A DNA stretch of 64,000 nt, taken from Streptomyces sp. Mut1. GTDB taxonomy: Bacteria > Actinomycetota > Actinomycetes > Streptomycetales > Streptomycetaceae. The number at the start of each line of letters is the position of its first letter. Position 1 is the stretch's first letter. The position numbers and the translations under genes are program-made. This document shows positions 8,796 through 30,847 of the stretch, piece by piece. The notes beneath the pieces were generated by a model that worked only from the letters and a program-made list of their open reading frames with translations, made no database searches and was not told the origin of the DNA. Location: NCBI RefSeq assembly GCF_030719295.1, contig NZ_CP120997.1, positions 6,396,001 through 6,460,000 of the forward strand. The letters run 5' to 3'.

Positions 8796-8800
8796 GCCGA

Positions 8801-8806: not shown

Positions 8807-8812
8807 AAGGAC

Positions 8813-10006: not shown

Positions 10007-10009
10007 GGC

Positions 10010-10351: not shown

Positions 10352-10409
10352 GACCGCCCCCGGGTAGCCGATTACGCACGTGGTCGTGTCCGTGCACGAG
10401 ACTAGTGCC

Positions 10410-11105: not shown

Positions 11106-11117
11106 GGAGCCGGGGGC

Positions 11118-11510: not shown

Positions 11511-11557
11511 GCCCCGACCGTAGGCCGGGCCCCGGCCCACGGTCTTGAACGAATCGG

Positions 11558-13123: not shown

Positions 13124-13274
13124 GCGGGTCACGGTCCTCTCGATGGGGCGCGGGCAGGGTGCCCGCACCGCCGACGCTTCCAGCGGCCTTTGATCCCCGT
13201 CCAATACCGAATTAGGCTCAGACCCGGACGCCGGACGAATCAATGATGCGGGCGGACCCGGGGGAGGGGACGGC

Positions 13275-15162: not shown

Positions 15163-15709
15163 GGGTCGGGGCCAGCAGCGACTCCGCCATCTCCAGGAGC
15201 CGCAGGGCCTTGTCGGAACGGTTGCTGGGCTCGGCGGCGCGCAGCCGGGTGAGCAGTTCGAGGCCGATGGCGGCCTGGTCGGCCAGCAGCCCGAGGAGTT
15301 CGACGTCCGCCATCTCCCGTACGCCGTCGGCGCCCCGGTCCAGCACCTCCAGGACGCCGACGCACTCGTCGTCGCCGAACAGCGGCGCGGCCATGATGCT
15401 GTCGGGCACGTACCCGGTGGAGGCGGCGGCCTCGCCCGAGAAGTGCCGCGACTCGCGCAGGTCGTCGACGAGCATCGACTGACCGGACGCGGCGACCCAG
15501 CCCGCGATGCCGGTCCCCGCCGGGAACCGCGTACCGACGAGCTGCCCGTCACCCTCACCGGCCACGGCCTCGAAGACGAGGTCGCCGGTCGCCGGGTCGA
15601 TCAGGAAGATCGAGGAGGCCGCCGCGCCGAAGACATGGCGCGCGACTTCCACGATGGACTGCAGCAGGCGGCGCCCCACGGGCGTCGCGGCGTCAACAGG
15701 TTTCGTCAT
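15155..15709 (-). CDS. GAF domain protein
   Basis: A 184-residue protein made almost wholly of one GAF domain: RLLQSIVEVARHVFGAAASSIFLIDPATGDLVF, PAGTGIAGWVAASGQSMLVDDL, IMAAPLFGDDECVGVLEVLDR and LLADQAAIGLEL. Such domains bind small ligands or cyclic nucleotides or sense redox. A class III nucleotide cyclase is two genes upstream in the same operon, which makes cyclic nucleotide binding a reasonable guess. The ATG at 15709 is fixed by GGAGG five nt upstream. It overlaps the protease gene by 17 nt and the ATP-grasp gene by 8 nt. Confidence 0.85.
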   Translation of the reverse strand: MTKPVDAATPVGRRLLQSIVEVARHVFGAAASSIFLIDPATGDLVFEAVAGEGDGQLVGTRFPAGTGIAGWVAASGQSMLVDDLRESRHFSGEAAASTGYVPDSIMAAPLFGDDECVGVLEVLDRGADGVREMADVELLGLLADQAAIGLELLTRLRAAEPSNRSDKALRLLEMAESLLAPTHG

Positions 15710-16568
15710 GCGCACCTCCAAGTCGACCGGTGGTGTTCCCGGCGCAGAGGAACAGCACCGTCTTCAGCTGGAACGGCGTGAGCCAGGGGTGCTTGCCGAG
15801 GATCAGCGCGCACAGGCCCGAGATGTGCGGCGCGGCGAAACTGTTGCCGGTCGAGCGGATGGTCCCGCCCCCCGGCCACGCCACGGGCACGCGTACACCG
15901 CGCGCGTGGAACTCCACGGGCGGCGCGGGGTTGTAGTAGTACGTCATCGGGTCGTCCTCGTCGTGGCTCGCGACGGAGATCACCGAGGAGAACGACCAGG
16001 GATAGCTGGGCACCGGCCGGTTGTGCGCGGAGACGACGAGCGCGCACCGGCGGAAGTAGGCCCGGTCGGCGAGCTCGTGGAGCTGGGCGGTCAGCGCGGG
16101 CCGGGTCGTCGCCAGGCTCAGGTTGATGACGTCGAAGTTCTGCTCGATGGCCCAGGAGAGCCCGGCGATCAGGGCCGGGCCGCTGCCCGTCTTGCCGTCG
16201 GTCAGCACCTGGGCGGACGAGACCGAGACCCCCGGTGCGACGGACCGGATCACCCCGGCGCAGGCGGTGCCGTGTCCGGCGCGGTCGGTGGGTTCGCACG
16301 GCACCATCTCCACCTCGCCGTCCTCGTCCGGGACGGCCGTCACGGCGAGGTCGACCGGGCCGGCCATCGGATGGCCGCCCTCGACCCCGCTGTCCACGAC
16401 GCACACCCGGACCCCGGAGCCGTCGGCCCCGCCCCACGCCCACTGAGGCGAGACCGAGTCCATGGGGATGGAAGCGAACCCCTCACGAGCCTGCGCCCTC
16501 GTCGCGCCCCAGGCCGGCACGCCCGGCGTGTAGGGCCGCGAGGGCCGTCTCCAGGGTGGATCGCTCAT
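15693..16568 (-). CDS. S8 family (subtilisin-like) serine peptidase, cytoplasmic
   Basis: A 291-residue subtilase with a complete triad: Asp in VCVVDSGVEGGHP, His in RAGHGTACAGV, Ser in GNSFAAPHISGLCA, and the oxyanion Asn in VVSAHNRP. There is no signal peptide, prepeptide or transmembrane segment, so it should act in the cytoplasm. In several RiPP pathways a subtilase removes the leader, and this gene lies in the operon divergent from the peptide precursor. It starts at ATG 16568, overlapping the cyclase gene by 4 nt, and ends inside the GAF gene. Activity as leader peptidase is inferred. Confidence 0.87.
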   Translation of the reverse strand: MSDPPWRRPSRPYTPGVPAWGATRAQAREGFASIPMDSVSPQWAWGGADGSGVRVCVVDSGVEGGHPMAGPVDLAVTAVPDEDGEVEMVPCEPTDRAGHGTACAGVIRSVAPGVSVSSAQVLTDGKTGSGPALIAGLSWAIEQNFDVINLSLATTRPALTAQLHELADRAYFRRCALVVSAHNRPVPSYPWSFSSVISVASHDEDDPMTYYYNPAPPVEFHARGVRVPVAWPGGGTIRSTGNSFAAPHISGLCALILGKHPWLTPFQLKTVLFLCAGNTTGRLGGAHDETC

Positions 16569-19500
16569 CGGTCCTCCTCCGGTCCCGCCGTGCTCCAGGC
16601 CCGTACCGTCCGGGCGGGGAGCACCGCCTCCTTCGCCGTCAGGGCGTCCAGCGCCCGCCCGGCGGCGTGCCGGGCCCGCTCCGGTTCACCGGCGGCGTCC
16701 AGCACCCGCGCCGCCTCGAACCAGACGTCACCGATGAGGCACGGGTCGTCGGTGCCGTCCAGGGCGGCGACGGCCCGCCCGGCGTCCCCGACCGCGTCCC
16801 CGTACGCCCCGGCCCGCGCCCGCGCCCGTGCCCGCAGCGCCAGCCGGACGGCCCGGGTACGGGTCTCCTCCGGCTGGTCCGCGGGCGGGTCGGCCAGCTC
16901 GGCCGCGTCCGGACCGGGGCCGTGCCCGGTGCAGAACCGCTCCCGGGCCGCGTACAGGCGCAAGGTGGCCGCGGTCCGCGTCTGCCCCAGGGCGGCGAGC
17001 CCGTCCGCCGCCGCCCCGTAATGGCCGGCGGCCGTCAGGTGCGCCCCGGCCAGGGACTCGACGAACCCCGCCGTCTGGTCGGCCGCGAGCGTGCCGAGGG
17101 CCAGCGCCAGGTCGTCGCAGTGGACACGGACCAGCGCGATGTCCTCACGGGCCGCGTCCACCCGGTCCGACAGGGCCAGATGCCGGGCCCGGGTCAGGAG
17201 CACCGGCACGAGCAGGCTCCGGTCGCCGTCGAACCGCCGGACCAACTCCTCGCAGAGCACGATCGCCTGGGTGAGCGGGGTCGGCGACCACTGCGTCAGC
17301 TCACAGATCGACGCGAGGATGCGGTTGCCCTCGTAGGTGTCGCCGAGCCCGCGCGCCCGGGAGAGCGCGTCGCGCATGGAGCCCTCCGCCGCGCCGACCC
17401 GGCCCTCCGCGAAGCTCCGCAGCGAGGACAGCTGGTGCAGCCTGCACCAGCTCAGGTCGTCCGCCGGCCCGGGCACGGCCGGCCCGCCGCCGGGGGCGTA
17501 CGGGGCGCCGGCGGGCTCCGGTCCGCCCGAGCGCAGGGCGATCAGCCGGCGCAGGATGGCGCAGGTGTCCCGGGTCGGGGCGTCGCCCCCGTTCCTGCGC
17601 TCCGCTTCCGCCACGGCCCGCCGCGCGCTGTCCCAACGGCCCAGCGCGGCATACGCGTCGGTGATGCGGGCGGCGAGCACCCGGTGCTGGGGGTCGCCGT
17701 CCGGGGTGAGGGCGCGCCCGCGTTCCATCAGCGAGACGGCGGCGGGCAGGTCGCGGCGGTGCAGCGCCCCGTACCCCGTGGTCACCAGGGCGCGGGCCGC
17801 ACGCCCGGTCAGCGCGGGCAGCCCGGGGTCGCCCGGATCGGCCTCGGACCGCAGCCGGCACGCGGACTCCAGGTGGTGGGCGGCGTCCCCCTCCGCGGCC
17901 GGGCCCGGCGCCCCGCCTTCGAGCCGGTCCGCGAGCACGGTGTGCCAGGTGGCGCGCCGGGCCTTGGAGGTCATCTCGTACAAGGTGTCCCGGGCCAGCG
18001 CCCGGGTGAACCGGTAGGTGCCGGGCGGGCCGTACGGATGGATCACCCGGGAGCGCAGCAGCCGGCCCAGGGCGTCATCGAGGACCCCGTCCGCCAGCGC
18101 CGGCTCGTCCTCGGCGAGCGCGCGCACCTCCTCGGCGGTGAACGACCCGCCCACCCCCGCGGAGCGCTCCAGCACGGCCCGGTCGGTGGCCGGCAGCCGG
18201 TCCAGCCAGGCCGTCAGCAGGACCCGGATCGACGTGGGAACGCCCTGGTCCACGGCCCGGTGGCCGGCCAGGTTCTCCAGGAGCAGTTCGGCGAACAGCG
18301 GATTGCCGTCGCACTCCCGCACCACCCGGGCCAGGTCGTCGGTGGCGACCGCCTCCTGCGCGGCCACTTCCGCCCGGTCCGCGAGCAGTTCCACCAGCCG
18401 CTCGGTCTGTGCGGGCGGCAGCGCGTCGAGGCGCAGTGCGAGGTCCCCGGCCGGCACCGCGGCACCCGTCTCGGCGCGCGTCACACAGATGATCAGCAGG
18501 GGGGTGTCCCGGGCGCCCTCGGCGAGATCGGCGACCATGTCGGAGAGGGTCGGCTGCGCCCACTGGAAGTCCTCCAGGACCAGGACCACCGGGGCGTCGC
18601 GGCCCAGGGCCTCCAGGAGCCGCCGGAACGCCCACCCGATCTCGTCGACACTCACCGGCAGCCCGCTCCCGGTGCGGACGCCCAGGGCGACGGCGAGGGC
18701 GGTGACAGCGCGGTCCGCGCCCGGGCGCAGCGTCTCCAGTGCCCGTTGCGCCTGTTCCCAGCCGCCGGGCAGCGACCAGACCGCCTCGGCCAGCGGGCGG
18801 TGGGCGAGCCCGGCACCGAACGCCTGGCAGCCGGCCCGCAGGACGACGGCGTCCTCCCCGACGCGGTCCAGGAACTCCCGCACCAGGCGCGACTTCCCGA
18901 TGCCCGGGGGACCGGCGACCGTCACCGGGCGGCTACGGCGCTCGTCCCGGGCCTCCGCGAACTCGGCCCACAGGACGCGCAGTTCGCCTTCGCGCCCGAC
19001 GAGCGGCACCAGGTCCTCGCGGCTCGCCGCGTCGAGGACGGACAACACCCGCCGGGCGGCGACCGGTTCGCGCTTGCCCTTCACCCGCAGCGGGGCGACG
19101 GCCTCCATACGGACCCGGCCGCCCACCAGCCCGGCCGTCTCCTCACCGATCAGGATCTCGTGCGGATCGGCGTGCGACTGGAGGCGGGCGGCCGTGTGCA
19201 CGACATCCCCGACCACCCTGGCCGCGCCGCCGAGCACCCCCGCCACCACGGCCTCTCCCGAGGCGATCCCGCAGTGGATGTCCAGCCGCACCCCGGGACC
19301 GGTCGCGATGGCCGCCACGGACTCGCGTACGGCGCACGCCGCCCGGACCGCGTGCAGCGCGTCGTCCTCATGGGTGACGAACGCCCCGAAGACGGCCATC
19401 ACGGCGTCGCCGATGAACTTCTCGACCACGCCGCCGTGTTCGGTGACCGCCGTGGTGCAGGCCCGGTAGTACCGGTCCATCGTGCGCCGCAGCGCCTCGG

Positions 19501-19678
19501 GGTCCAGGGTCTCGGCCAGCACGGTCGAGCCGACGAGGTCGATGAAGAGAGCCGTGACGATTCTGCGGCTGTCCGACGACGGCGCCCCCGCGACCACCGG
19601 TGTGCCGCACTCGGGGCAGAACCGTGCTCCGTCCGGCACCGTGGCACGGCAACCGCCGCACCGCGCGCCACCGTTCAC
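16565..19678 (-). CDS. Class III nucleotide cyclase / AAA ATPase / TPR signalling protein
   Basis: A 1037-residue multidomain protein. Order: zinc ribbon (Cys7, Cys10, Cys21, Cys24), class III adenylate/guanylate cyclase catalytic domain at about 38-215 with ALFIDLVGSTVLAET and FIGDAVMAVFGAF supplying the metal-binding Asp residues, a STAND-type AAA domain from about 225 with Walker A GPPGIGKSRL and Walker B VVLVLEDFQWAQ, then tetratricopeptide-like helices to the end. The layout recalls LAL regulators with the HTH replaced by a cyclase. GTG start at 19678 overlaps the LuxR gene by 4 nt. It probably senses a signal and drives expression or activity of the operon; the ligand is unknown. Confidence 0.88.
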   Translation of the reverse strand: MNGGARCGGCRATVPDGARFCPECGTPVVAGAPSSDSRRIVTALFIDLVGSTVLAETLDPEALRRTMDRYYRACTTAVTEHGGVVEKFIGDAVMAVFGAFVTHEDDALHAVRAACAVRESVAAIATGPGVRLDIHCGIASGEAVVAGVLGGAARVVGDVVHTAARLQSHADPHEILIGEETAGLVGGRVRMEAVAPLRVKGKREPVAARRVLSVLDAASREDLVPLVGREGELRVLWAEFAEARDERRSRPVTVAGPPGIGKSRLVREFLDRVGEDAVVLRAGCQAFGAGLAHRPLAEAVWSLPGGWEQAQRALETLRPGADRAVTALAVALGVRTGSGLPVSVDEIGWAFRRLLEALGRDAPVVLVLEDFQWAQPTLSDMVADLAEGARDTPLLIICVTRAETGAAVPAGDLALRLDALPPAQTERLVELLADRAEVAAQEAVATDDLARVVRECDGNPLFAELLLENLAGHRAVDQGVPTSIRVLLTAWLDRLPATDRAVLERSAGVGGSFTAEEVRALAEDEPALADGVLDDALGRLLRSRVIHPYGPPGTYRFTRALARDTLYEMTSKARRATWHTVLADRLEGGAPGPAAEGDAAHHLESACRLRSEADPGDPGLPALTGRAARALVTTGYGALHRRDLPAAVSLMERGRALTPDGDPQHRVLAARITDAYAALGRWDSARRAVAEAERRNGGDAPTRDTCAILRRLIALRSGGPEPAGAPYAPGGGPAVPGPADDLSWCRLHQLSSLRSFAEGRVGAAEGSMRDALSRARGLGDTYEGNRILASICELTQWSPTPLTQAIVLCEELVRRFDGDRSLLVPVLLTRARHLALSDRVDAAREDIALVRVHCDDLALALGTLAADQTAGFVESLAGAHLTAAGHYGAAADGLAALGQTRTAATLRLYAARERFCTGHGPGPDAAELADPPADQPEETRTRAVRLALRARARARAGAYGDAVGDAGRAVAALDGTDDPCLIGDVWFEAARVLDAAGEPERARHAAGRALDALTAKEAVLPARTVRAWSTAGPEEDR

Positions 19679-20214
19679 AGGAGCTTGATGTCCTGTCCCT
19701 CCACCTCACCGGACACCGCTTCCAGCCGCTCCCTGACGGAGTTCAGCACCCGGACCTCGTGCTCGCTGAGCCCCGAGAGGACCGAGCGCTGCTCGACCGC
19801 CAGCAGGTCCACCGGGTGGCCGGCCTCACGTAGTGCGTGCAGGGCGTCGAAGGTCATGGCTACCGGTACCTCGTTCCCGTAGTGCGGCCAGTCGAGCGTG
19901 ACGCCCGCCGGTCCGATGGAGCACTCCGCGACCGCTGCCGCGAGGGCGCCGATGGTCTCGGGAGCCTCCTGCCGTCTGCGCTCGTCGGCGGGCAGCGGTG
20001 GCCATATCCCCTGGACCAGAACGCCCTGGGCGTACAGCCGCGCAATCATTTCCGTACGGTTCGACGCGCCCGTTCTTCGGAGCATGTTGCATAAGTGGGC
20101 CGCCACCGTGTGAGGGCTGATGCAGAGAGCTTCGGCGATATCCCGGTTCGAGGAGCCGGCGGCCACGAGCGAAGCGATAAGAATCTCACGCCTGGTCAAA
20201 CCCTTTACCCCCAT
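19675..20214 (-). CDS. LuxR-type HTH regulator fused to a precursor-peptide-like C-terminal domain
   Basis: A 179-residue protein. Residues 4-66 are a LuxR/NarL HTH (LTRREILIASLVAAGSSNRDIAEALCISPHTVAAHL). Residues 120-179 align without gaps over 52 positions to the leader of the divergent 65-residue peptide gene, with about 29 identities (ALR-AG-PVDLL, GLS--EV-VL-S, RL-AVS--VEGQ), but it ends in DIKLL with no cysteine. An ATG at 19857 starts exactly at this domain, so a separate 60-residue product is possible, though its ribosome site is weak. Codon 41 (Leu) is TTA, the rare bldA-dependent codon, inside the HTH. First gene of the left arm of the RiPP cluster; it may read the precursor or its modification partner. 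Confidence 0.85.
   Translation of the reverse strand: MGVKGLTRREILIASLVAAGSSNRDIAEALCISPHTVAAHLCNMLRRTGASNRTEMIARLYAQGVLVQGIWPPLPADERRRQEAPETIGALAAAVAECSIGPAGVTLDWPHYGNEVPVAMTFDALHALREAGHPVDLLAVEQRSVLSGLSEHEVRVLNSVRERLEAVSGEVEGQDIKLL
20092..20094 (-). promoter_or_regulatory. In-frame TTA leucine codon in the LuxR-type gene
   Basis: Codon 41 of the regulator, in HTVAAHL, is TTA. In Streptomyces this codon needs the bldA tRNA, which matures late, so TTA-bearing regulators tie specialised metabolism to development. Seen directly; the consequence is established for other clusters and inferred here. Confidence 0.85.
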
Positions 20215-20419
20215 TGTGGTGAGCGAAGCGTGGGCCGGCAGGGAAATACCTCACTCCCGGGGGTCAGAGTAGCTGCGGGGCATGTTCCGGACAAGAACGC
20301 CGCGAACGGGATCACAGGACCACTGGATTCATAGTCGATCGGGGGATATGAAGCCGGGGGGCGCCGGAGCAGCCTTGCCGTTGCACCAGCCCGTGACTGT
20401 CTCCCTGAAGGAGTGACCC
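20215..20419. promoter_or_regulatory. Divergent control region between the two arms of the RiPP cluster
   Basis: This 205-nt gap separates the start codons of the LuxR-type regulator (left) and the precursor gene (right), so it must hold both promoters. It is less GC-rich than its surroundings. A partial dyad GTTC-N7-GAAC is at 20284-20298, and CATAGT near 20330 and GATATG near 20346 are possible -10 boxes for the right arm. None of these is strong enough to call a promoter alone. Confidence 0.5.
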
Positions 20420-20617
20420 ATGTCGCAAGCACCTCTCGACGCGCTGCGCAGCGCCGGCACCCCGGTCGACCTGCTGTCGGACTCCGAGCGCGAGATCTTC
20501 AACGGCCTCAGCCCGGACGAGGTCGCGGTCCTCGGCTCGATCCAGGCCCGGCTCAACGCCGTGTCCGCCGCGGTCGAGGGCCAGGTGAACGACAACCAGG
20601 TCAACGTCCTCTGCTGA
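20420..20617 (+). CDS. Candidate RiPP precursor peptide ending in Cys
   Basis: A 65-residue peptide with a strong ribosome site (GAAGGAG, six nt before ATG). Residues 1-55 form a helical, acidic leader (PLDALRSAGTPVDLLS, GLSPDEVAVLGSIQARLNAVSAAVEGQ). The tail VNDNQVNVLC is the likely core: Asn- and Val-rich, no Ser or Thr, and one terminal Cys. The next genes are a SPASM radical SAM enzyme and a LanD-like decarboxylase, whose known relatives act on a C-terminal Cys. The leader is repeated in the C-terminal domain of the divergent LuxR-type regulator. The core length and cleavage site are guesses. Confidence 0.85.
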   Translation: MSQAPLDALRSAGTPVDLLSDSEREIFNGLSPDEVAVLGSIQARLNAVSAAVEGQVNDNQVNVLC

Positions 20618-20714
20618 TAACGGCCCTGGCGGGTCCGGCGGCACCGGCCGTCGGGCCCGCCGGAGGGGACGCGCCGGACCGCCGTGCGTCCGGACACCCA
20701 GTGGGAGCGTGATG

Positions 20715-22079
20715 ATGGACCAAGTCAGCAGATACCTGGTGCTCAGTGACCGCGCGTACGCCGACACCACCGGCGTCCCGGTACGGCTCGCCTACAGCAC
20801 CCGCACCGCGAGCACCGTCGCGGTGGACCTCCCCACCGCGCGGGCACTGGAGGCCGGCGACGCCGCCGCGCTCGCCCCGGCCTGGACCGGCGCCCTGCGC
20901 GCGGCCCAGCTGCTCGTACCGGCCGGCGAGGACGAGCTGTCCGCCGTACTCGACCGCAACCGGCGCGCGTCCGCGGACCGTTCGGCGGTGCACATCGCTC
21001 TGCTGCCGACCTCCTACTGCAACATGGGCTGCGCCTACTGCGGCCAGGAACACACCCGGGGCGGCCTGTCCCGCGACCACCGCAGCCGGGTCCGCGACCG
21101 CGTGCTGCGCGCCGTGACCGCCCCGGGGACCCGCAGCGCCCGGATCGACTGGTTCGGGGCCGAGCCGATGATGGGCTACGCGGTCATCCGCGACCTCGCC
21201 CCCCGCTTCGTCGCCGCCGCCGCCGAGCACGGGGTCGCCTACTCCTCGGTGATCGTCACCAACGGCTCCCTCCTCACCCCCGCGAAAATCAACACGCTCA
21301 TCCGCTCCTGCGGGGTCACCCATTTCGAGATCACGATCGACGGACCGCCGGATATACACAATGAACACCGGCCGCTGAAAAGCGGACGAGGATCTTTCTG
21401 GAACATCGTGCGCGCCGTGCGTTCCGTACTCGACGAACCGGATCTCGGTCCCACCCATTTCGCGTTCCGGACGAATGTCGATGTGCACAACCAGGACTCC
21501 GTACCCCGCTATGTCGAGCTGATGGCGGAGCTGGGCTTCAGCCACCCACGTGTGTCCTTCTCGATCGCTCCCGTCCACTCGTGGGGAAACGACGTATCGG
21601 CGATCGAGGTGTCCAAGTACGAGTTCGCCGAGCGCGAGACGGGGTGGCTCCGGCTGCTCTCCGAGCACGGGCTGCACACCCAACTGCTGCCGACCACCGC
21701 GCGGAAGGTCCTCTGCCCCGCCACGACCCGCTCGTCCGAGATCATCAGCAGCACCGGCAACATCTTCTCGTGCAGCGAGTACCCCCTCGTCCCCGAGGCC
21801 GAGCGCACCCTCGCGCTGACGCACATCGACCGGGCGGGTACCGAACCGGTCCGGCCGCTGGGCCCCTTCGACGGCTGGAACGACCAGATCGCCGAGGGCA
21901 CCACCTGGTGCAAGAGCTGCGTCTTCATGCCCACCTGCGGCGGCTCCTGCCCCAAGGCATGGCAGGAGGGCCACCCGCCCTGCCCCGGCTACAAGTACAA
22001 CGTCCAGGACAGGCTCGATCTCATCGCCGCCCAGTGCGGCCTGCGCGACGTGGCCGGTGAGCCCGCCGGAGCCCGTTGA
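20715..22079 (+). CDS. SPASM-domain radical SAM peptide-modifying enzyme
   Basis: A 454-residue radical SAM enzyme. The SAM/[4Fe-4S] motif SYCNMGCAYC (Cys102, 106, 109; CX3CX2C) opens the barrel, with DWFGAEPMM and VTNGSLLT following. The C-terminal SPASM region has the full cysteine pattern: C-x-GNIFSC, CKSCVFMPTCGGSC (CX2CX5CX3C) and PPC, binding two auxiliary clusters. SPASM enzymes next to small peptides usually make thioether, C-C or C-O crosslinks. ATG 20715 is preferred (GGGAG seven nt upstream); GTG 20709 and ATG 20712 are in frame. The stop overlaps the decarboxylase start (TGATG). A stretch near 21280-21500 has lower GC. Confidence 0.93.
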   Translation: MDQVSRYLVLSDRAYADTTGVPVRLAYSTRTASTVAVDLPTARALEAGDAAALAPAWTGALRAAQLLVPAGEDELSAVLDRNRRASADRSAVHIALLPTSYCNMGCAYCGQEHTRGGLSRDHRSRVRDRVLRAVTAPGTRSARIDWFGAEPMMGYAVIRDLAPRFVAAAAEHGVAYSSVIVTNGSLLTPAKINTLIRSCGVTHFEITIDGPPDIHNEHRPLKSGRGSFWNIVRAVRSVLDEPDLGPTHFAFRTNVDVHNQDSVPRYVELMAELGFSHPRVSFSIAPVHSWGNDVSAIEVSKYEFAERETGWLRLLSEHGLHTQLLPTTARKVLCPATTRSSEIISSTGNIFSCSEYPLVPEAERTLALTHIDRAGTEPVRPLGPFDGWNDQIAEGTTWCKSCVFMPTCGGSCPKAWQEGHPPCPGYKYNVQDRLDLIAAQCGLRDVAGEPAGAR

Positions 22080-22672
22080 TGACGGCGCGGACCGGCCCGG
22101 ACGCCCCGCGCCGGCTGCTCATCGGAGTGTGCGGCTCCGGCAACGTACTCGCCGTTCCGCAGTACCTCATGGCTCTGCGCACCGGCCTCGGACCCGGCGT
22201 CGAGATCCGTATGGCCATGACCCGCTCCGCCGCCGCGCTCATTCCGGCCGCGACCATGCGGCTACTGTGCCGGGACGTGTACTGCGACGGCGAGGACGAA
22301 CTGACGACCGGTCATGTCGCCCCCGCCGTCTGGGCGGACCGCTTCGTCGTCCTGCCCGCCACCGCCAACATGCTCGGCCAGGCCGCCAACGGACTCGCCT
22401 CCGGACTCCTCAGCTCTGCGCTGCTCGCCCATGACCGTCCAGTGGTGTTCTTTCCGAGCATGAACAGCCTAATGTGGGAGCGCCCCGCCGTCCGCCGCAA
22501 CGTGGACCGATTGCGCGCGGACGGGCATGCCGTCGTGGACCCGGTGCCCGCCACCGGCTGGCTGATCGCCGCGGGCGACGTACGCAAGAACCTCGGGCTG
22601 CCGCCGCCCGCCACCGTGACGGCGGTGATCGGCGAGTTCCTGGACCTGCCGGTCGGCCCGCTCGGGGGCTGA
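22079..22672 (+). CDS. LanD/EpiD-like flavoprotein cysteine decarboxylase (HFCD family)
   Basis: A 197-residue homo-oligomeric flavin-containing Cys decarboxylase. It has the three family marks: active-site His79 in TGHVAPAVWAD, PATANM at 93-98 (PASANT in EpiD), and PSMNSLMW at 126-133, which fits the PxMNxxMW substrate-clamp signature. EpiD and MrsD oxidatively decarboxylate a C-terminal Cys to an enethiol, later joined into an aminovinyl-cysteine ring. The upstream peptide ends in Cys, so it is the natural substrate. There is no lanthipeptide dehydratase nearby. Coenzyme A biosynthetic PPC decarboxylase is unlikely at this size and place. Confidence 0.9.
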   Translation: MTARTGPDAPRRLLIGVCGSGNVLAVPQYLMALRTGLGPGVEIRMAMTRSAAALIPAATMRLLCRDVYCDGEDELTTGHVAPAVWADRFVVLPATANMLGQAANGLASGLLSSALLAHDRPVVFFPSMNSLMWERPAVRRNVDRLRADGHAVVDPVPATGWLIAAGDVRKNLGLPPPATVTAVIGEFLDLPVGPLGG

Positions 22673-22699
22673 GCACACCATCCAGCACAAGGGGGAGAC

Positions 22700-24067
22700 G
22701 TGGCAGCAGCCGGACACCGGCTCCGTACGGCACTGGCGGGCGGACCCATGTCGGTGCGCGGCTTCCGGCTGCTGCTCGCCGGGCAGCTCTCCTCCACGGT
22801 CGGCGACTACTGCTACGCCGTCGCGCTGCCCTGGCTGATCCTCTCCGGCGGTGGCGGCCCGGTCCTGCTCGGCACGGTCCTGGCCTGCTACGGCATCCCC
22901 CGCGTCGTCACGATTCCGCTGGGCGGGGTGGTGGCCGACCGGATCGGCGGCCGGCGCGTCATGCTCATGGCCGACCTGGTGCGCGCCGCGGCCGTCGGCA
23001 CCCTCGCGGTGCTCGCCTCGGCCGGAACACCGACACTGAGTCAGCTCGCCCCCATCGCCGTCGTGTTGGGCGCCTGCTCCGGCATGTTCATCCCCGCCTC
23101 GTACACCCTCCTGCCCGCCCTGCTGCGCAAGGAGGACCTCGGCCGGGGCAACGCCCTGTCGACCATGGTCAACCAGGTCGGCGGACTCCTCGGACCCACC
23201 GCGGGCGGCGCCCTGGTGGCCGCCTTCGACGCGGGTCCTGCGCTCACGGTCGACGCTGCGTCCTTCCTCGTGTCGGCGCTGGTCCTCGCCCGAATACGCA
23301 CCGGCGCGGACGCGCCGGAACACGACGGGCCCGTCGCCACCGACGAGACCGCGGTCCGCAAGACGTCCTTCCGTGAACTTCTGCGCCACGGAAGGCTGCT
23401 GCACATCGTGCTGGTGGTGGCCCTCGTCTGCAACCTGGGCTTCAACGGCACGATCGAGGTGGCGTTGCCCGAACTGGCCCATCAGGGCATGGGCGCCACC
23501 GGCTACGGAATTCTGCTCACCTGCCTGAGCCTGGGCGGTCTGGCCGGCTCCCTGGTCGCCGCCCGCAGCCGTCCGGTGGAGTCGCCCGCCTATCTGTTCG
23601 CCACGCTCGCGGTCGTCATGGGCATCGCCCTGGGCGCCGTCCCGTACGCCGGTGGCCTGATCGGCGCGGCGGTGTGCGTCTGCGTCTACGCCCTGGCCAG
23701 CGGCTGGCAGAACATCGTCGTGGTGACGATGCTCCAGGTCTGGGCGCCGTCCGCGCTCATCGGCCGGGTCATGAGCCTGGTCATGCTGGCCGTCATGGGC
23801 ACCTTCCCGATCTCCGTCGCGGTGGCCGGCTTCGGAGTCCGCCACCTCGGCGCGGCCCCCTTCTTCCCGGTGGCGGGCGGGGCCATCGCCCTCACCGTGC
23901 TGGGCGCACTCACCCAGCGGGTGTTCCGCGACCACCGCGCCGACACCGAGTACGCCCCGCCGGTGCCCGTACCCGCCGCGGCCCCGGCCGTCGGGCCCGC
24001 ACCCGGCGTACCGGCCGCCCGCTCCACACATCCCGGGCAGGACGACAGTCAGGAGTCGCAGCGATGA
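22700..24067 (+). CDS. MFS transporter, probable exporter of the peptide product
   Basis: A 455-residue major facilitator with about 12 membrane helices, of the macrolide-efflux/enterobactin-exporter type (RLLLAGQLSSTVGDYCYAVALPWLIL at the first helix, ADRIGGRRVMLMADLVRAA in loop 2-3, NQVGGLLGPTAGGALVAAFD). The GTG at 22700 follows GGGGGAG. It lies between the decarboxylase and the B12 radical SAM gene and overlaps the latter by 4 nt. Export of the modified peptide, or self-resistance, is inferred from position. Confidence 0.88.
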   Translation: MAAAGHRLRTALAGGPMSVRGFRLLLAGQLSSTVGDYCYAVALPWLILSGGGGPVLLGTVLACYGIPRVVTIPLGGVVADRIGGRRVMLMADLVRAAAVGTLAVLASAGTPTLSQLAPIAVVLGACSGMFIPASYTLLPALLRKEDLGRGNALSTMVNQVGGLLGPTAGGALVAAFDAGPALTVDAASFLVSALVLARIRTGADAPEHDGPVATDETAVRKTSFRELLRHGRLLHIVLVVALVCNLGFNGTIEVALPELAHQGMGATGYGILLTCLSLGGLAGSLVAARSRPVESPAYLFATLAVVMGIALGAVPYAGGLIGAAVCVCVYALASGWQNIVVVTMLQVWAPSALIGRVMSLVMLAVMGTFPISVAVAGFGVRHLGAAPFFPVAGGAIALTVLGALTQRVFRDHRADTEYAPPVPVPAAAPAVGPAPGVPAARSTHPGQDDSQESQR

Positions 24068-26265
24068 GCGTGTTCGTCCCGTTGGGCATGCCGCGGTTCG
24101 AGGGCGAACCGGACCACGGCCCGCGGCCGGGCCGGGGCACAGTCAACACCGCGTACCTGCTGGTCAATCCGCCCGTGACCGACCCGACGACCGCCTACCA
24201 CTCGATCCCGTACCTGGTGGGCGCCGCCAGGGCGGCCGGCCACACCGAGTACGCCTGCGTGGACGCCAATCTCGACGCCTTCACCCACCTCGCCGACCCC
24301 TTGCGCTTCGGCGCCACGCTCGCGGCCGCCCGCTCCCTGCGCGCCGAGATCGAGGCCAGGTCCGCCGCCCCCCGCCGCCACGACGAGATCCGCTACCGGC
24401 AGGCCCTGGCCGCCGAGGGCCTGACCGCGACATCGGCGCGCGACGCGATCCGTGTGTTCCAGGACCCCGACCTCTTCTACCACCCCCCGACCTACGCCCA
24501 GGCGGTCGCGGTGACGAGCCGGTGGTGGGAGCTCATCGCCCTGGAGATGCCGCCCGGCGCGGCGGACGGCTTCTCGATGCGGGTGAAGTCCGCCGTCAAC
24601 CTGTGCAGCACGGCGGACCTGTCCGACCCCGAGGTCCCGGCGGCCGTGGCCCGCCCCTTCGAGGGCTACTTCGCCGACGAGTTCGTCCCCAGGCTGCGCG
24701 AACGCCCCTGGGCTGTGGTGGGACTCTCCGTCAACTACACCAGTCAGCTGCCCGTCGCCCTCAGGATGGCCCGCCTGATCCGGACCGCACTGCCCGACAC
24801 GGTGATCGTCTTCGGCGGCACCGAGGTCGGCGACGTGGTCAAGTACGCCTCCGACCCGGCGGCCGCGTGGCGGGTCTTCCAGGACGCCGACCTGATCGTT
24901 CCGGGCGAGGGCGAGACCGCCCTCATCGGCATCCTCGACGCGGTCGGGAACGGCGCGGTCCGGGGCGGTGACGCCTTCGAGGGCATCGGCGGCGTGATGA
25001 CCAGGAAACGGCCCGACCCCGTCATCGCGTACGGCAGCGTGGACACGCTCGACTCCCCGGCGTACGACGTGTGGGACTGGGACCGGTACTGGGCGCCCGA
25101 ACCGGTGATCCTCTACAGCCCGACCCGGGGGTGCTACTGGAACAAGTGCACCTTCTGCGACTACGGCCTCAACACCGACCGGCCGACCTCGCCCTCGCGC
25201 GAACGCCCCGTCGCCGCCGTCCTTGAGGACCTGCGGGAGGTGAGCCGCTACGGCAGGACCCTCTACTTCGCGGTGGACGCCATGTCCCCGCGCTATCTGC
25301 GCACCCTCGCCGCCGCCCTCGCCGAATCCTCCCTGGACCTGCGCTGGTCCGCCGAACTGCGGCTGGAGCGGACGTTTCCCAAGCGCGCCGTCGGTGAACT
25401 CCTCGCGGCCTCCGGCTGCGTCGCGGTCTCCTTCGGCTACGAGTCGGGCAGCCAGCGGGTCCTCGACCTCATCGACAAGGGGGTGAAGATCGACGCCGTC
25501 CCGGACGTCCTGGCCGAGCTGGCGCGCAACGGCATCGCCGCGCAGATGATGGGCTTCACCGGCTTCCCCACCGAGACCCGGGACGAGGCGCTCGCGACGT
25601 ACGAGTTCCTCCAGGACCACGAGAAGCTGTGGACGACGGCGGGCATCGGCCTGTTCGCGCTGACCCCCGGCTCCATCGTCGCCAAGGACCCCGGCCGGTT
25701 CGGCATCGACCTCCTGCCGACCTCCGCCTCCGACGACATCCGGCGCTATGTGCCCTGGCGCGACCGGACGTCCGGTGAGGTGCACTGGCCGGAGTCCGAG
25801 GACCCCCGCGTCCCGCGCGAACACAGCGCCGGCTTCCGCAGGACCAGCTTCGACCGCCCCTTCGTCGGCGGCATCGACGCCGCGCACACCCTGCTCTACC
25901 ACGCCCGCTTCGGCCGGGGACTGATGCCCGAGGCCCCCGAGGGCCCCGGCCGCGACGAAGAACCCCGCGTCCGCCTGGTCGAGGAACCGGTGGTGACCAT
26001 CCCGTTCGCCTCCATCGAGGGGCTGACCGGTGTCGACGACCTGATGGCGCAGGTCAGCCGTCGCAGCCGGGAGCACCTGGACACCACATCCGGCGGCTAC
26101 GGGGAATGGCTCGACGGGACCGGCACCGCCCGCCCCGGCTCCTGCGGGGTCCTCGTCCTCGCCCACGGCGACCTCGTGGAGGTGCCCGCGGGCGTGGACT
26201 TCACCGCGGACAACGCCCTCACCCGCGCCCTGCGCCTGATGCTCGCGACGCAGGTCCGCGCCTGA
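24064..26265 (+). CDS. B12-binding-domain radical SAM protein
   Basis: A 733-residue enzyme. The N-terminal part holds a cobalamin-binding Rossmann-like domain ([45 protein letters not shown], about 215-300) without the DxHxxG motif, as in most class B radical SAM methylases. The radical SAM barrel follows with [13 protein letters not shown]: Cys357, 362 and 365 are spaced CX4CX2C instead of CX3CX2C. Class B members methylate unactivated carbons or do ring contractions. AGGAG precedes the ATG by eight nt; the start overlaps the MFS stop. Last gene of the right arm; expected to tailor the precursor or another small substrate. Confidence 0.88.
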
Positions 26266-26295
26266 GGCCGTCCGCGGCGGCCGGGCCGGCCGATT

Positions 26296-26312
26296 GAGAC
26301 GCCGGGCGTCTC
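26296..26312. promoter_or_regulatory. 17-bp perfect palindrome after the RiPP arm
   Basis: GAGACGCC-G-GGCGTCTC lies 30 nt after the B12 radical SAM stop and 104 nt before the thiolase start. It can fold as a 7-bp stem with a 3-nt loop (terminator) or act as an operator for the thiolase gene. The sequence does not decide between these. Confidence 0.45.
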
Positions 26313-26416
26313 GATGCCAGGGAAACTGGGTATTGGACCGGCTCGGTCGCCGGGTGCGAGGGTCGTGCCGGACCCCTGTCCACCGACGCCCCGCCGCCCC
26401 CGGAAAGGCCCCCGCC

Positions 26417-27643
26417 GTGCCCGACCCTCTCGATGTCGTGATCTGCGAACCCCTGCGCACCCCCATCGGCCGCTTCGGCGGGGTGTTCGCCGGGCAGCGG
26501 CCGGCCGCCCTCGCCGCCCGTGTCATCGCCGAGGTCGTCGCCCGCACCGGCATCGACCCCGACCGGGTCGACGAGGTGATCCTCGGCCACTCCTACCCCT
26601 CGGCCGAGGCCCCCGCCATCGGCCGGGTCGCCGCCCTGGACGCCGGGCTCCCGCAGACGGTCACCGGCATCCAGACCGACCGCCGCTGCGGCTCCGGGCT
26701 CCAGGCGGTCCTGGACGCGGCCATGCAGATCCGCGCCGGGTTCAGCGAGGTCGTCATCGCGGGCGGCGTGGACGTGATGAGCGCGGCCCCCTACTACACG
26801 CACGACGGGCGCTGGGGCATCAAGGGCCCCGGACTCCAGCTCCACGACGCGCTCGCCCGGGGCCGGGTCACCGCGGGCGGCCTCCACCACCCCGTACCGG
26901 GCGGCATGATCGAGACCGCCGAGAACCTGCGCCGGGCGTACGGCATCAGCCGAGCCGACCAGGACGCGCTGGCCCTGCGCTCGCAGCGGCGGGCCGGCCG
27001 GGCGGCGGCCGAGGGCCGGTACGAGGCCGAGATCGTCCCGGTCACGGTGAGGACCAGGAAGGCCGAGACGGTGGTCGGCGCCGACGAGCACCCCCGCCCC
27101 GACACCACCGCCGAACAACTCGCCGCGCTCCGCCCGGTCATGCTGAAGTCCGACCCGGAGGCCACCGTCACCGCGGGCAACGCCAGCGGCCAGAACGACG
27201 CGGCGGCCGCCTGCCTGGTGACGAGCGCCGCCACCGCCGAACGCCTCGGCCTCAACCCGCTGGCGCGGCTGGTCTCCTTCGCCAGGGCCGGAGTCCCCGC
27301 CGCCACCATGGGCCTCGGCCCCGTCCCCGCCACCCGCACCGCGCTCGGCCGCGCCGGCCTCACGCTCGCCGACCTCGACCTGATCGAGCTCAACGAGGCG
27401 TTCGCCGCCCAGGTGCTGGCCTGCACCCGGGAGCTGGGCCTCGGCGAGAAGGACCACGAGGAGCGGATCAACGTGAACGGCTCCGGCGTCTCGCTCGGCC
27501 ACCCCGTCGGCGCCACCGGAGCCCGCATCCTCGCCACCCTCACCCGGGAACTGCACCGCCGCGAGGCGCGCTACGGCCTGGAGACCATGTGCATCGGCGG
27601 CGGCCAGGGCCTCGCCGCGGTCTTCGAGCGCGTCGCGGTCTGA
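26417..27643 (+). CDS. Acetyl-CoA C-acyltransferase (thiolase II family)
   Basis: A 408-residue thiolase that condenses or cleaves acyl-CoA. Catalytic residues are all visible: the nucleophile Cys in [11 protein letters not shown] near residue 90, the His in [19 protein letters not shown], and the second Cys in [15 protein letters not shown] sequence near the end; NEAFAAQ is also present. GTG 26417 is taken as start because the enzyme sequence begins [21 protein letters not shown] right after it and GGAAAGG lies upstream. Stands alone between the RiPP arm and the sialic-acid operon, on the opposite strand to the latter. Biosynthetic or degradative direction cannot be told. Confidence 0.93.
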
Positions 27644-27698: not shown

Positions 27699-29156
27699 CT
27701 ACCGCTCCACGGCGACCGGCCCGTCCGCCGCCGGACCCGCCGCCAGGTGGTCGTCCCGGGCGTCCGGGTCGGCCAGCCGGTTCAGCCGGGCCGGTACGTC
27801 GAAGCCGACCAGCAGGACCACGATCACCGTGCCGGCGAACGTCAGCACCGCCAGCGCCCGGCCCAGGTCCATGCCGGAGGCCAGATGCGCCCCGAGGACC
27901 GGGGCGACGGCCCCGCCGAGAGCACCCACGTTGTACGTGAAGCCGAGCGCGGCGCCCCGGCTGCGGGTCGGGAAGTGGCCGCCGATGTAGCGGGGGAGCA
28001 GGCCGGAGATGCCGAAGCTCGTCGCCTGGAGCAGGAAGAGCAGGACTCCGAGCAGCAGCAGGTTGTTCTCCACCGCGAAGACCGGGTAGACGAAGGCGAG
28101 CGAGGCCAGCAGCGTCAGCGCGTACGCCTTCTTCGTACCGATCCGGTCGCCGAGGAAGCCGGCCGTCCAGCAGCCGACCATGGTGCCGAAGCCCGCGAAG
28201 TACAGGACGTCGGTGACCTGCCCCGTCGTGTAGCCCAGCTCCGTCTTCAGATACGTCGGCAGCAGAGCCTGGATCGGCCAGGAATACAGGAACGCGAAGA
28301 ACAGCGTCACGATCATCGACAGGTACAGCACCCAGCCGCGCCTGCCGCCCAGCTGCACGGCCAGTGCGGCGAGCGAGAGCCCGGCGACCACCGAGAGCAC
28401 CGGGACCATGCCGGAGCCGCCCGGGGTGAAGACGAGGAACAGCGAGAGCGTGGCGACGGCCACCAGGACCGTGTTGGCGGTGGCCCGGCGCGGGGTCAGG
28501 AACAGCGGCCGGAACGGGTTGGGCCTGGCACCCTCGTCCGCGACCGACTCCGTCCACTCCTCCGCCTCCGGCAGCGCCCGCCGCATCCACAGCGCGACCG
28601 CTATCGGGATCAGGCCGAGGTAGAACATCCAGCGCCAGCCGAGCGAGGGCACCACCCAGTCGTAGACCTGGGCCGCCAGCACCGAACCCACCGAGAAGCC
28701 GGAGATCAGAAAGCCGCTGGCCCGGTTGCGCAGCGCGGGCGGCCAGCTCTCCATCACGTATGTGGAGCTGGCGCTGTACTCCCCGGCCATGCCCATGCCG
28801 ATGGCCAGCCGGGCGGCGAACAGGCTGTGGTAGTTCCACGCGAATCCGCAGGCGAAGGTGCCCAGCGAGTACAGCAGGATGCTCACCACCATCGACAGCT
28901 TGCGGCCGTAGCGGTCGCCGAGGGCGCCGAGCACGGCACCGCCGAGCCAGCGGGTGATGAACGCGCCGGAGATCAGACTGGCGGCCTGCACCGTGCTCAG
29001 CCCGAAGTCGTCACTGATCTCGGTCAGGACGAGGGTGATCAGCACGAAGTCGAAGCCGTCCAGGACGTAGCCGATCCAGGCGGCGAAGAACGACTTCCAC
29101 TGGGTGCGGCTCACCTGGCGGTACCAGGGGAGCGTGGGGGGTGTGGTGGTGTGCAC
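27699..29156 (-). CDS. nanT: Sialic acid MFS transporter
   Basis: A 485-residue major facilitator very like E. coli NanT from the first helix on: PWYRQVSRTQWKSFFAAW, GYVLDGFDFVLITLVLTEI, TVQAASLISGAFITRW, GALGDRYGRKLSMV, IGMGMAGEYSASSTYVMESWP, RASGFLISGFSVGSVLAAQVY. NanT imports N-acetylneuraminate with protons. It has the family's extra middle helices. GTG 29156 has GGAG five nt upstream. Last gene of the nanA-nanK-nanE-nanT operon. Its presence along with the ABC transporter at 40-46 kb gives the cell two probable sialic-acid importers. Confidence 0.92.
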   Translation of the reverse strand: MHTTTPPTLPWYRQVSRTQWKSFFAAWIGYVLDGFDFVLITLVLTEISDDFGLSTVQAASLISGAFITRWLGGAVLGALGDRYGRKLSMVVSILLYSLGTFACGFAWNYHSLFAARLAIGMGMAGEYSASSTYVMESWPPALRNRASGFLISGFSVGSVLAAQVYDWVVPSLGWRWMFYLGLIPIAVALWMRRALPEAEEWTESVADEGARPNPFRPLFLTPRRATANTVLVAVATLSLFLVFTPGGSGMVPVLSVVAGLSLAALAVQLGGRRGWVLYLSMIVTLFFAFLYSWPIQALLPTYLKTELGYTTGQVTDVLYFAGFGTMVGCWTAGFLGDRIGTKKAYALTLLASLAFVYPVFAVENNLLLLGVLLFLLQATSFGISGLLPRYIGGHFPTRSRGAALGFTYNVGALGGAVAPVLGAHLASGMDLGRALAVLTFAGTVIVVLLVGFDVPARLNRLADPDARDDHLAAGPAADGPVAVER

Positions 29157-29219
29157 GGTGACTCCAGGATGCGGGACGGCGCTCGTCGTTGAACAGCCGC
29201 CCCGCTGGGTGGGCGCAGA

Positions 29220-29900
29220 TCAGGGCCGGGCGATACCCGCGACGAAGCGGCTGGTCAGGGCCGTGGGGGCGGTGATGGCCGTGCCGACGACGACGCTGTG
29301 CGCGCCGCGCGCCAGGGCCTCGGCCGCTTCCTCGGGGGTGTTGACGCGCCCCTCGGCGACGACGGGTACGTCGATGGCGGCGGCGAGCCGGGCGACCAGG
29401 TCGAGGTCGGGGCCTGTCTGCTTCGGCTGCCCCGGGACGTAGCCGGACAGGGTCGTGGAGACGAAGTCCGCGCCCAGCCCCGCGGCGGTGACGCCCTCGG
29501 CGAGGGTGGAGACGTCGGCCATGACGAGGGCGCCGGCCGCGTGGACCGCCTCGACCAGCTCGGCGAAGGTCGAACCGTCGGGGCGCGGCCGGTCGGTGGC
29601 GTCGGCGGCGACCACGGCCGCGCCGGCCTCGGCGACCGCCAGGGCGTGCCGGACGGTCGGGGTGATGTAGACGCCGACGTCGCCGTCCTTCCACAGGCCG
29701 ATGACCGGCAGGTCGACGGCGGCGACGATCGCGGCGACGACCTCCGGCTCGTTGGCGCGGATCGCCGCGCCGCCGCCGGCGACGGCCGACCGCGCGAGCC
29801 GCACCAGCGTGGAGGTCTCCCGCATCGGGTCGCCGGGGGGCGCCTGGCAGGACACGATCAGCTTGCCCTGGAGAGTGGTGGCCAGTTCCTGTGCGCTCAT
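29220..29900 (-). CDS. nanE: N-acetylmannosamine-6-phosphate 2-epimerase
   Basis: A 226-residue TIM-barrel epimerase turning ManNAc-6-P into GlcNAc-6-P. The family sequence is clear: KLIVSCQAPPGDPM at the N terminus, GGAAIRANEPEVVAAI, VIGLWKDGD, YITPTVRHALAVAEAGA, ADVSTLAEGVTAAGLGADFVSTTLSGY and VVAEGRVNTPEEA, with the catalytic Lys in LWKD. ATG 29900 overlaps the nanK stop by 4 nt. Middle of the nan operon. Confidence 0.94.
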   Translation of the reverse strand: MSAQELATTLQGKLIVSCQAPPGDPMRETSTLVRLARSAVAGGGAAIRANEPEVVAAIVAAVDLPVIGLWKDGDVGVYITPTVRHALAVAEAGAAVVAADATDRPRPDGSTFAELVEAVHAAGALVMADVSTLAEGVTAAGLGADFVSTTLSGYVPGQPKQTGPDLDLVARLAAAIDVPVVAEGRVNTPEEAAEALARGAHSVVVGTAITAPTALTSRFVAGIARP

Positions 29901-30847
29901 CGGAGAGCTCCCGGGTGGTGGAGGGGAAGGGTGGTGGTGAGGGCGGCGGCGCCGAGCACGGCCGCGTCGTGGCCGAACAGCGGGGCGCGCGGTACGAGCC
30001 CGCGCAGCGGCCCCATCAGCTCGGCGGCGAAGGCGGCGCGCAGGGCGTCCTCGTACAGCGCGCCGATGCGCGGGACGCCGCCGCCGACGACGACCCGGTC
30101 GGGGCCGAGCGCGTTGGCGAGCCCGCCGAGGACGTGGCCCGCGGCCGCCGCGCCCGTGGTGATGGCGGTGACGGCGTCGGCGTCGCCTTCGGCGGCGCGG
30201 GCGGCGACGGTCTCCAGACGGTCCACGGGGGCACCGGTCAGCCGGGCGTAGTGGGCGGCGATGCCCGGCCCGGACGCGATGACCTCCAGATGGCCGGTGG
30301 CCCCGCAGGTGCAGGGCAGCCGGGCCGCCTCCGGGCTCGGCAGATGGCCGAGGTGCCCGGCGATGCCGGAGGCGCCGTGCAGCATCCGCCCGTCGGACGC
30401 GAGGGCGCCGCCGACGCCGGTGCCGATGGCCGCGAACAGCAGGGAGGCGTGCTCGTTGCCCTCGGCGCGCAGCGCGTCGAGCTCGGGGCCCGCGGTGGCG
30501 CGTACGTCGTTGTCGCAGGCCACCGCGTAGCCCGTACGGTCGGCCAGGCCGGCGCCCAGCGCGGTGCCGGCCCAGCCGCGGAGCGAGTCCGTGGCGCTGG
30601 TGACCATGCCGCTGCGGGGGTCGATCACCCCGGCCGCCGCGATGCCGAGCACGGCGGCGCGGCGGCCCGGGTCGACCTCGGCGGCGGCCGCCGCCAGCGC
30701 GTCGAGCACCGCGTCGGCGCCCTCCTGGGCCGGGGTGGGCCTGCTGTGCCGGGCCAGGACCGCGCCGTCCGCGCCGAACAGCGCGGCGGCGATCTTCGTA
30801 CCGCCCAGGTCGAGGCCGACGACGGGGCCCGGTGCCGGACGCGTCAT
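29897..30847 (-). CDS. nanK: ROK family kinase, probable N-acetylmannosamine kinase
   Basis: A 316-residue ROK sugar kinase. The ATP motif GLDLGGTKIAAALF is at residue 10; the catalytic Asp is in ACDNDVRATA; GTGVGGALASDGRMLHGASGIAGHLGHL precedes the zinc-site sequence CTCGATGHLE, in which the usual last Cys is His. ManNAc is the expected substrate from the flanking nanE and nanA, with both of which it overlaps by 4 nt. Glucokinase-type ROK activity is the alternative without context. Confidence 0.9.
   Translation of the reverse strand: MTRPAPGPVVGLDLGGTKIAAALFGADGAVLARHSRPTPAQEGADAVLDALAAAAAEVDPGRRAAVLGIAAAGVIDPRSGMVTSATDSLRGWAGTALGAGLADRTGYAVACDNDVRATAGPELDALRAEGNEHASLLFAAIGTGVGGALASDGRMLHGASGIAGHLGHLPSPEAARLPCTCGATGHLEVIASGPGIAAHYARLTGAPVDRLETVAARAAEGDADAVTAITTGAAAAGHVLGGLANALGPDRVVVGGGVPRIGALYEDALRAAFAAELMGPLRGLVPRAPLFGHDAAVLGAAALTTTLPLHHPGALR

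Follow-up and report, generated by a model that had tools for sequence, protein, structure and literature searches.

The 64,000-nucleotide stretch of Streptomyces sp. Mut1 DNA considered here (the window) carries a putative gene cluster for a ribosomally synthesized and post-translationally modified peptide (RiPP), made up of ten genes and one site at positions ~14173-26265. An earlier note on this DNA had described five closely packed right-arm genes, and all five were found in that arrangement on the plus strand: a 65-residue precursor peptide whose last residue is Cys (20420-20617), with AAGGAG upstream and an NF045560 domain; a SPASM radical S-adenosylmethionine (SAM) enzyme (20712-22079; PF04055, with a CX3CX2C motif and seven SPASM cysteines); a LanD-type flavoprotein of the homo-oligomeric flavin-containing Cys decarboxylase (HFCD) family (22079-22672; PF02441), in which both expected motifs, PATANM and PSMNSLMW, are present; a major facilitator superfamily (MFS) exporter (22700-24067; PF07690, 112 bits); and a cobalamin (B12)-type radical SAM enzyme (24064-26265; PF04055, CX4CX2C). 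In order, these genes are separated by a 94-base gap, a 1-base overlap, a 27-base gap and a 4-base overlap, and the family matches bear out the note's description of two different radical SAM enzymes plus an exporter. Its two-armed layout holds in that a divergent LuxR-type regulator is present (19675-20214, minus strand; GerE, 54.7 bits), but the left arm continues past the regulator with four more minus-strand genes, and the conserved unit extends beyond the right arm. These four encode a class III nucleotide cyclase/AAA ATPase protein (16565-19678; Guanylate_cyc, 58.4 bits; AAA_16, 76.9 bits), an S8 subtilisin-like protease that is a candidate leader peptidase (15693-16568; PF00082, 94.4 bits), a GAF-domain protein (15155-15721; PF01590, 63.9 bits) and an ATP-grasp protein related to graspetide maturases (14173-15162; TIGR04187, 82.8 bits). 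The five left-arm genes overlap their neighbours by a few bases in an operon-like manner. A conserved promoter/operator-like site, TAGTCGATCGGGGGAT (20332-20347, plus strand), lies 72 bases before the precursor start.

The search for homologous clusters that the earlier note had named as a check found the grouping of precursor, radical SAM enzyme and HFCD protein kept in 17 further loci, the opposite of the outcome that the note had listed as refuting; the grouping is thus more than chance. A scan with the HFCD protein gave 11 loci, ten of them from Streptomyces, with HFCD identities of 88-97%; L051, L052 and L106-L109 were added by leader-domain and HFCD searches, and L133, from another family, by a search with the B12 enzyme. 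Two further entries (L053 and L054) are repeats of L006 and L011 and were counted once, and L014 was excluded as a short unrelated match (57% over 77 residues). The HFCD gene is kept in all 17, a presence that is partly by design and that is independent for L133 (B12-enzyme search) and for L051-L054 (leader-domain search). The MFS gene is likewise present in 17 of 17, and the left arm is complete in 13; among the incomplete loci, L008 starts at the SPASM gene and L006 and L011 stop inside the cyclase gene at a contig edge. At L010 (4644-12187) the cyclase is truncated, the S8 and GAF genes are unmatched and the MFS and B12 genes are each in two pieces, and this copy of the cluster looks like a product of decay or disruption, or of an assembly error. 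The most distant locus, L133, has protein identities of 48-70%, a left arm upstream on the same strand and a B12 gene that comes before the MFS gene. At E <= 1e-28, 10 of the 249 genomes searched in the family have an HFCD protein; five of these (the window's own genome included) hold the full cluster and five hold other HFCD genes. In the class the figure is 7 of 394, and among those fetched the cluster is present only in the window's own genome. The leader domain is more widespread within the genus (58 of 295 genomes, 53 of them over the cut-off; 0 of 14 control genomes), and leader-domain stretches fetched from 39 of the 57 other genomes contained an HFCD gene in four cases.

Precursors were readable in 17 of the 18 loci, window included, and every one of them ends in N-x-x-C, with Asn at position -4 and Cys at -1. 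The tail of the window precursor, VNDNQVNVLC, holds the single Cys of that peptide. This tail occurs seven times, VADSNTNVVC three times, VKDNQVNVLC and SQVIDANQVNVLC twice each, and QADSNTNVVC, VADNNNNTVC and MADTNNNLC once each. When the tails are aligned from the C terminus, Asn -4 and Cys -1 are the sole fixed positions; the residues between them vary (NVLC, NVVC, NTVC and NNLC), and Asp occurs in all 17 cores at a variable position (-7, -8 or -9). The earlier note had described a core without Ser or Thr, which is true of the window precursor but not of the family: 6 of the 17 tails have Ser or Thr within the last ten residues and 11, the window's included, have none, so the absence of these residues was ruled out as a family trait. 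No residue that could be dehydrated to act as ring partner (Ser, Thr or another Cys) was seen at a fixed place in these tails; each has one Cys, and Asn stands at -4 instead. Precursor changes between the window and its close relatives are mostly synonymous (in L007, six synonymous and no non-synonymous), and L108 has a tail identical to that of the window behind a leader that differs at many places. More non-synonymous change was seen in the precursors of L010 and L013 (5.5 and 6, respectively).

Several lines of comparison place the HFCD protein with the LanD enzymes. Against PDB sequences it scored highest with MrsD (141.7 bits), followed by 7cfu (108.2), 6jls (67.0), EpiD (64.6 and 62.2) and CoaBC (58.1), and in a tree of 25 sequences, with the genome's own CoaBC as outgroup, the window family joined MrsD and a gallidermin-type LanD with an ultrafast bootstrap (UFBoot) value of 97. 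Among the next-nearest HFCD loci (L110-L119), a small open reading frame (ORF) ending in Cys lies nearby in eight of ten, with none convincing at L115 and L119, and the HFCD gene of L113 adjoins a RamC/LanC-like synthetase gene. The MrsD match, the LanD grouping and the nearby Cys-ending frames together support a peptidyl-cysteine-type, LanD-like decarboxylase. We dropped one further argument, that the Cys of phosphopantothenoylcysteine decarboxylases is missing from the window protein, because that Cys is also absent from the CoaBC encoded in the same genome. As a separate observation, the HFCD gene of L116 (9808-10970) adjoins a 52-residue ORF ending in DCGCWCCSCC.

The SPASM enzyme has a full set of cysteines, and all ten (CX3CX2C plus seven) are kept in 10 aligned family members; L110 is without one of the seven. 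It reached 184.2 bits with TIGR04463 (cut-off 525) and remained under every NCBIfam cut-off among 25 of the 41 families listed. An AlphaFold2 model built on an eight-sequence alignment had a mean predicted local distance difference test score of 47 and was not used. In a tree of SPASM enzymes, L126, L072 and L125 form a clade with the window family (UFBoot 99), within which two of the three outside loci have N-x-x-C peptides. One of these, L125 (Streptomyces plasmid NZ_CP108437.1; SPASM identity ~41%), has an unannotated 33-residue ORF with strong codon-position G+C that ends in NGNC, and the other, L126 (R. etli CP007643.1; ~35%), has an annotated 77-residue protein with an internal NSGC; neither has an HFCD match in the fetched stretch. 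A third N-x-x-C peptide, ending in NGIC, is found at L110, where a SPASM enzyme of 27-28% identity occurs together with an HFCD protein; because L110 joins L141 and L142 in the tree (UFBoot 100), it looks like a separate SPASM-HFCD pairing. Conversely, none of the nine HFCD loci that lack this SPASM enzyme (L111-L114, L116-L118, L122 and L123) had Asn at -4, and in a rough background of window proteins Asn stood three residues before Cys for 4 of 190 cysteines. It is suggestive, from a contrast noticed after the fact, that N-x-x-C follows the SPASM enzyme.

At L125 (8462-13247) the 33-residue ORF precedes genes for the SPASM enzyme, a methyltransferase, a SagB-type dehydrogenase and an MFS protein, possibly a linear-plasmid RiPP cluster. 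L110 (7847-10074) is a separate SPASM and HFCD cluster with a Cys-rich precursor ending in GNCKSCPVNGIC and a caspase-domain gene downstream; at E <= 1e-60, one genome among the 70 of its genus carries it, and there was one weaker match besides.

The B12-binding match of the B12 enzyme is weak, at 31.5 bits just under the 32.1 cut-off, and the closest NCBIfam model, TIGR03975, was reached with 82.8 bits (cut-off 281.85). Its CX4CX2C motif reads CYWN[KR]CTFC in 13 of 14 aligned sequences and CQYAQCLFC, with the same spacing, in L124. Going by the nearest NCBIfam model, our guess is that it methylates. A relative with 44% identity over 631 residues is encoded on S. meliloti plasmid pAK76 (L122), adjoining an HFCD gene (34% over 148 residues), and no SPASM match was found in the stretch fetched there. 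Other relatives (~40%) at L129 and L134 lie beside YcaO genes, with TfuA too in L134, and have no HFCD match; from these settings, the B12 enzyme belongs to more than one kind of RiPP locus. The L122 region (8056-11296; NZ_CP066360.1, a conjugative plasmid) also contains a 72-residue ORF ending in GGQNC and genes for a 2-oxoglutarate-Fe(II) oxygenase and a cupin, and possibly represents a further RiPP with Cys decarboxylation and without a SPASM enzyme. Small ORFs ending in CCCPCCCT were observed at L129 (8683-14363) and L134 (8930-14659).

The earlier note had judged the cluster to be of an apparently new type, which is not supported for the cluster as a whole. Residues 5-55 of the precursor match NF045560 (67.1 bits; cut-off 30), as does the C-terminal domain of the regulator (70.8 bits), and the leader type is thus already known. 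The regulator domain shares 55% identity over 55 residues with the precursor and ends in DIKLL, DLKLL or ELKLL with no core after it; we infer that, by way of this leader copy, the regulator or the cyclase may sense whatever binds the leader or compete for it. Relatives of the cyclase, S8 and GAF genes occur in 35 of 36 other NF045560 loci fetched (L055-L090), which argues that this module goes with the domain and that both predate the chemistry of the window. The cyclase and the GAF protein, whose gene is conserved in 13 of the 17 further loci, are more likely to belong to signalling shared by leader-domain loci. By family, the S8 protein would be the leader protease (its closest NCBIfam model, QhpE, was matched at 95.4 bits, below the cut-off of 165) and the MFS protein the exporter. 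The same genome has a second leader-domain locus (C1:461334-461489; L001, L090), also with cyclase, S8 and GAF relatives, whose peptide ends in HSEIAGGALF and contains no Cys.

The pattern TAGTCGATYGRGGGAT, taken from the upstream alignment, is matched without deviation by 15 of 17 loci; L013 and L109 each depart from it at two bases. The pattern has its sole exact match in the 8-Mb genome at this cluster, with one other place at two mismatches, and its chance expectation in the window is 0.06 even allowing two mismatches. Since no DNA-binding protein other than the LuxR protein was recognised in the cluster, this regulator probably reads the 16-base site.

The pathway that we propose leads to an S-aminovinyl-cysteine (AviCys)-like ring without a dehydratase, the SPASM enzyme tying the sulfur of the decarboxylated Cys to Asn -4; we hold it tentatively, at slightly less than an even chance. 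In the manner of LanD enzymes, the HFCD protein would turn the C-terminal Cys into an enethiol by oxidative decarboxylation. The SPASM enzyme would then make a carbon radical on Asn -4 and bond this residue to the enethiol sulfur; the resulting i,i+3 ring would bear the carboxamide or side chain of Asn. The B12-type enzyme would modify the peptide further, in all likelihood by C-methylation, the S8 protease would cut off the leader and the MFS protein would export the product; the LuxR protein, with its copy of the leader domain, would control the precursor promoter through the 16-base site. A radical crosslink to the decarboxylated Cys had been suggested from the outset, and it is still the simplest chemistry. 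In the LanD mechanism as proposed in PMC4979651, a free thiol is oxidised before addition. With the free thiol oxidised first and a single Cys in the peptide, any thioether at that Cys must follow decarboxylation, an order that would leave the SPASM enzyme with an enethiol to work on. According to PMC8172795, Asn is an established S-C-alpha thioether acceptor of the SPASM enzymes of thurincin H and ruminococcin C. The paper also gives Asp-to-Asn changes in the ranthipeptide PapA as abolishing the bond, which would set a C-beta bond to Asn apart from the case of PapA's enzyme. Asp seemed a less likely crosslink partner in the window family, its distance from Cys being variable.

The ring of cypemycin is also i,i+3 and C-terminal, at the end C-L-V-C, in the same register as N-V-L-C. 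As described in PMC4979651, cypemycin has a Cys decarboxylase and a cluster without a Lan-like dehydratase, its dehydroalanine being made from Cys; it was therefore too strong to say, as the earlier note did, that in known AviCys pathways the decarboxylase comes together with a Ser/Thr dehydratase. AviCys systems use dehydrated residues (PMC9415263), and neither source of such residues appears open here: the cypemycin-type route is closed because the precursor has a single Cys, with an invariant Asn in place of the second Cys of cypemycin, and 11 of 17 tails have no Ser or Thr. No Ser/Thr dehydratase and no LanKC-type kinase or lyase was recognised among the family matches of the ten cluster genes, in agreement with the note as regards the dehydratase; this covers those genes, as no dehydratase scan of the whole window was made. 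A broader proposal, that SPASM enzymes couple LanD-made enethiols to Asn -4 in a dehydratase-independent radical route and that HFCD proteins were recruited by SPASM systems at least twice (in the window family and in L110), is possible in our judgement, with the balance leaning against it.

Several observations weigh against a SPASM-made link to Asn -4. Precursors were inspected at 14 SPASM loci outside the family, and only three (L125, L126 and L110) have N-x-x-C; L141 and L142 have N-x-x-x-C, five (L130, L140, L143, L145 and L148) have neither pattern, and at L144, L146 and L147 the candidate peptide was not settled. At L072, whose SPASM enzyme (~41%) belongs to the same clade, the nearest NF045560 peptide, which ends in HSLEGGGVVW, is free of Cys, and no candidate with N-x-x-C turned up; the substrate of that SPASM enzyme is unclear because other radical SAM genes are present (two more radical-SAM-like reading frames lie beside the SPASM relative at 9474-15189). 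The core is rich in Asn, so that one fixed Asn could reflect needs of the leader side or of the ATP-grasp protein, which is left without a role in the proposed pathway. From the pairing at L122, the B12 enzyme could be the real partner of the HFCD protein, and its only PDB match, AprD4 (35 bits), a diol dehydratase by NCBIfam, leaves room for some radical dehydration.

In one alternative, the radical enzymes act away from sulfur: the SPASM enzyme would make a change around Asn or Val (through C-C or C-N bonds or stereochemically), the HFCD protein would form the enethiol, and this would be trapped or capped by the B12 enzyme or by its transfer of a methyl group. The neighbouring HFCD and B12-enzyme genes of S. 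meliloti, with a Cys-ending ORF and no SPASM match, would fit such a scheme, as would the Cys-free candidate of L072. However, the B12-HFCD pairing is not strict, given the YcaO-associated relatives at L129 and L134, and N-x-x-C tracks the SPASM enzyme; we consider this alternative unlikely. The ATP-grasp protein might instead be the core maturase, activating Asp and joining it to the enethiol sulfur or to a backbone group in graspetide fashion. Thirteen of the 17 further loci keep its gene and L010 shows a partial match, the protein is related to the TIGR04187 and MvdC models, and Asp is present in every core. Nevertheless, its scores (run on 14173-15168) are far under the graspetide cut-offs (against 350 for TIGR04187; MvdC, 57.3 bits; MvdD, 46.0 bits), the Asp-Cys spacing varies where the Asn-Cys spacing is constant, and the match in all five L055-L059 loci, whose core is CxC, suggests that it may belong to the shared module, which makes a maturase role improbable.

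A sactipeptide or ranthipeptide, with a SPASM thioether on an intact Cys and an HFCD protein that has another task (e.g., processing a by-product, or serving as redox partner), would agree with the N-x-x-C peptides and missing HFCD matches of L125 and L126. It seems decidedly improbable given that HFCD is constant in the family, including in loci found without an HFCD query, and that the only Cys is C-terminal as in LanD substrates. A conventional AviCys pathway whose dehydratase has escaped recognition could draw on the Ser or Thr in some relatives' cores, but with the window and ten others having neither residue in the last ten positions, and with no such enzyme among the conserved genes' matches, it is highly improbable. 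Finally, that the HFCD protein is a phosphopantothenoylcysteine decarboxylase only, which the earlier note had named as a refutation, is barely tenable: CoaBC and CoaC are its closest NCBIfam models, yet neither cut-off is reached (92.4 bits against 219.7, and 61.1 bits against 261.4), and against this stand the MrsD match, the LanD grouping, its constant place in the cluster and a full, separate CoaBC elsewhere in the genome (TIGR00521, 400.1 bits; cut-off about 220).

Compared with known systems, the cluster has parts of known kinds and a described leader family; its likely chemistry is new. The HFCD protein shares with the LanD enzymes of AviCys RiPPs (MrsD, EpiD) its sequence family, the PATAN and P-MN--MW motifs and a Cys-ending substrate; it differs in being paired with radical SAM enzymes of the SPASM and B12 types, with no Ser/Thr dehydratase recognised. 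The leader domain is that of the Aroma-sacti family (NF045560), and relatives of the LuxR, cyclase, S8, GAF and ATP-grasp genes occur in L055-L059, whereas the score with the StsA-related sactipeptides (NF045559) is below cut-off (24.8 of 75 bits); unlike the CxC cores of these groups, the window core has one C-terminal Cys, and an HFCD protein and a B12 enzyme are added. A radical SAM enzyme with the full SPASM cysteine set is shared with TIGR04463, PapB (ranthipeptides) and RumMC (sactipeptides), but the window enzyme is far under every equivalog cut-off and its substrate has a single, C-terminal Cys. The RiPP B12 C-methyltransferases of TIGR03975 are the closest model for the B12 enzyme, which differs in its sub-threshold score and its CX4CX2C motif. 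A limited literature search met no RiPP with a SPASM enzyme plus an HFCD protein in print, which is a weak negative.

If the proposed pathway is true, AviCys-type rings no longer need dehydrated residues, and the range of ring precursors becomes wider. The ring would carry an Asn-derived carboxamide, and the SPASM class would accept an enethiol instead of a Cys thiol; for genome mining, the rule would be a SPASM relative plus an HFCD protein plus an N-x-x-C end. With the leader copy in the regulator and the single conserved site, the cluster also makes it possible to test whether a RiPP leader domain has been taken over for regulation.

Beyond the right arm, genes for an acyltransferase, a sialate symporter and an epimerase were considered as cluster members and rejected, being present in only 6, 5 and 5, respectively, of 15 further loci compared and in none of the divergent loci. 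The minus-strand genes at 27699-31803 encode a sialate symporter (NF003024) and an N-acetylmannosamine-6-phosphate epimerase, both over cut-off, and a DapA/NanA-family lyase below cut-offs; they likely serve sialic-acid use and adjoin the cluster in close relatives only. The gene provisionally called 'thiolase' occupies 26294-27643 when read in frame.

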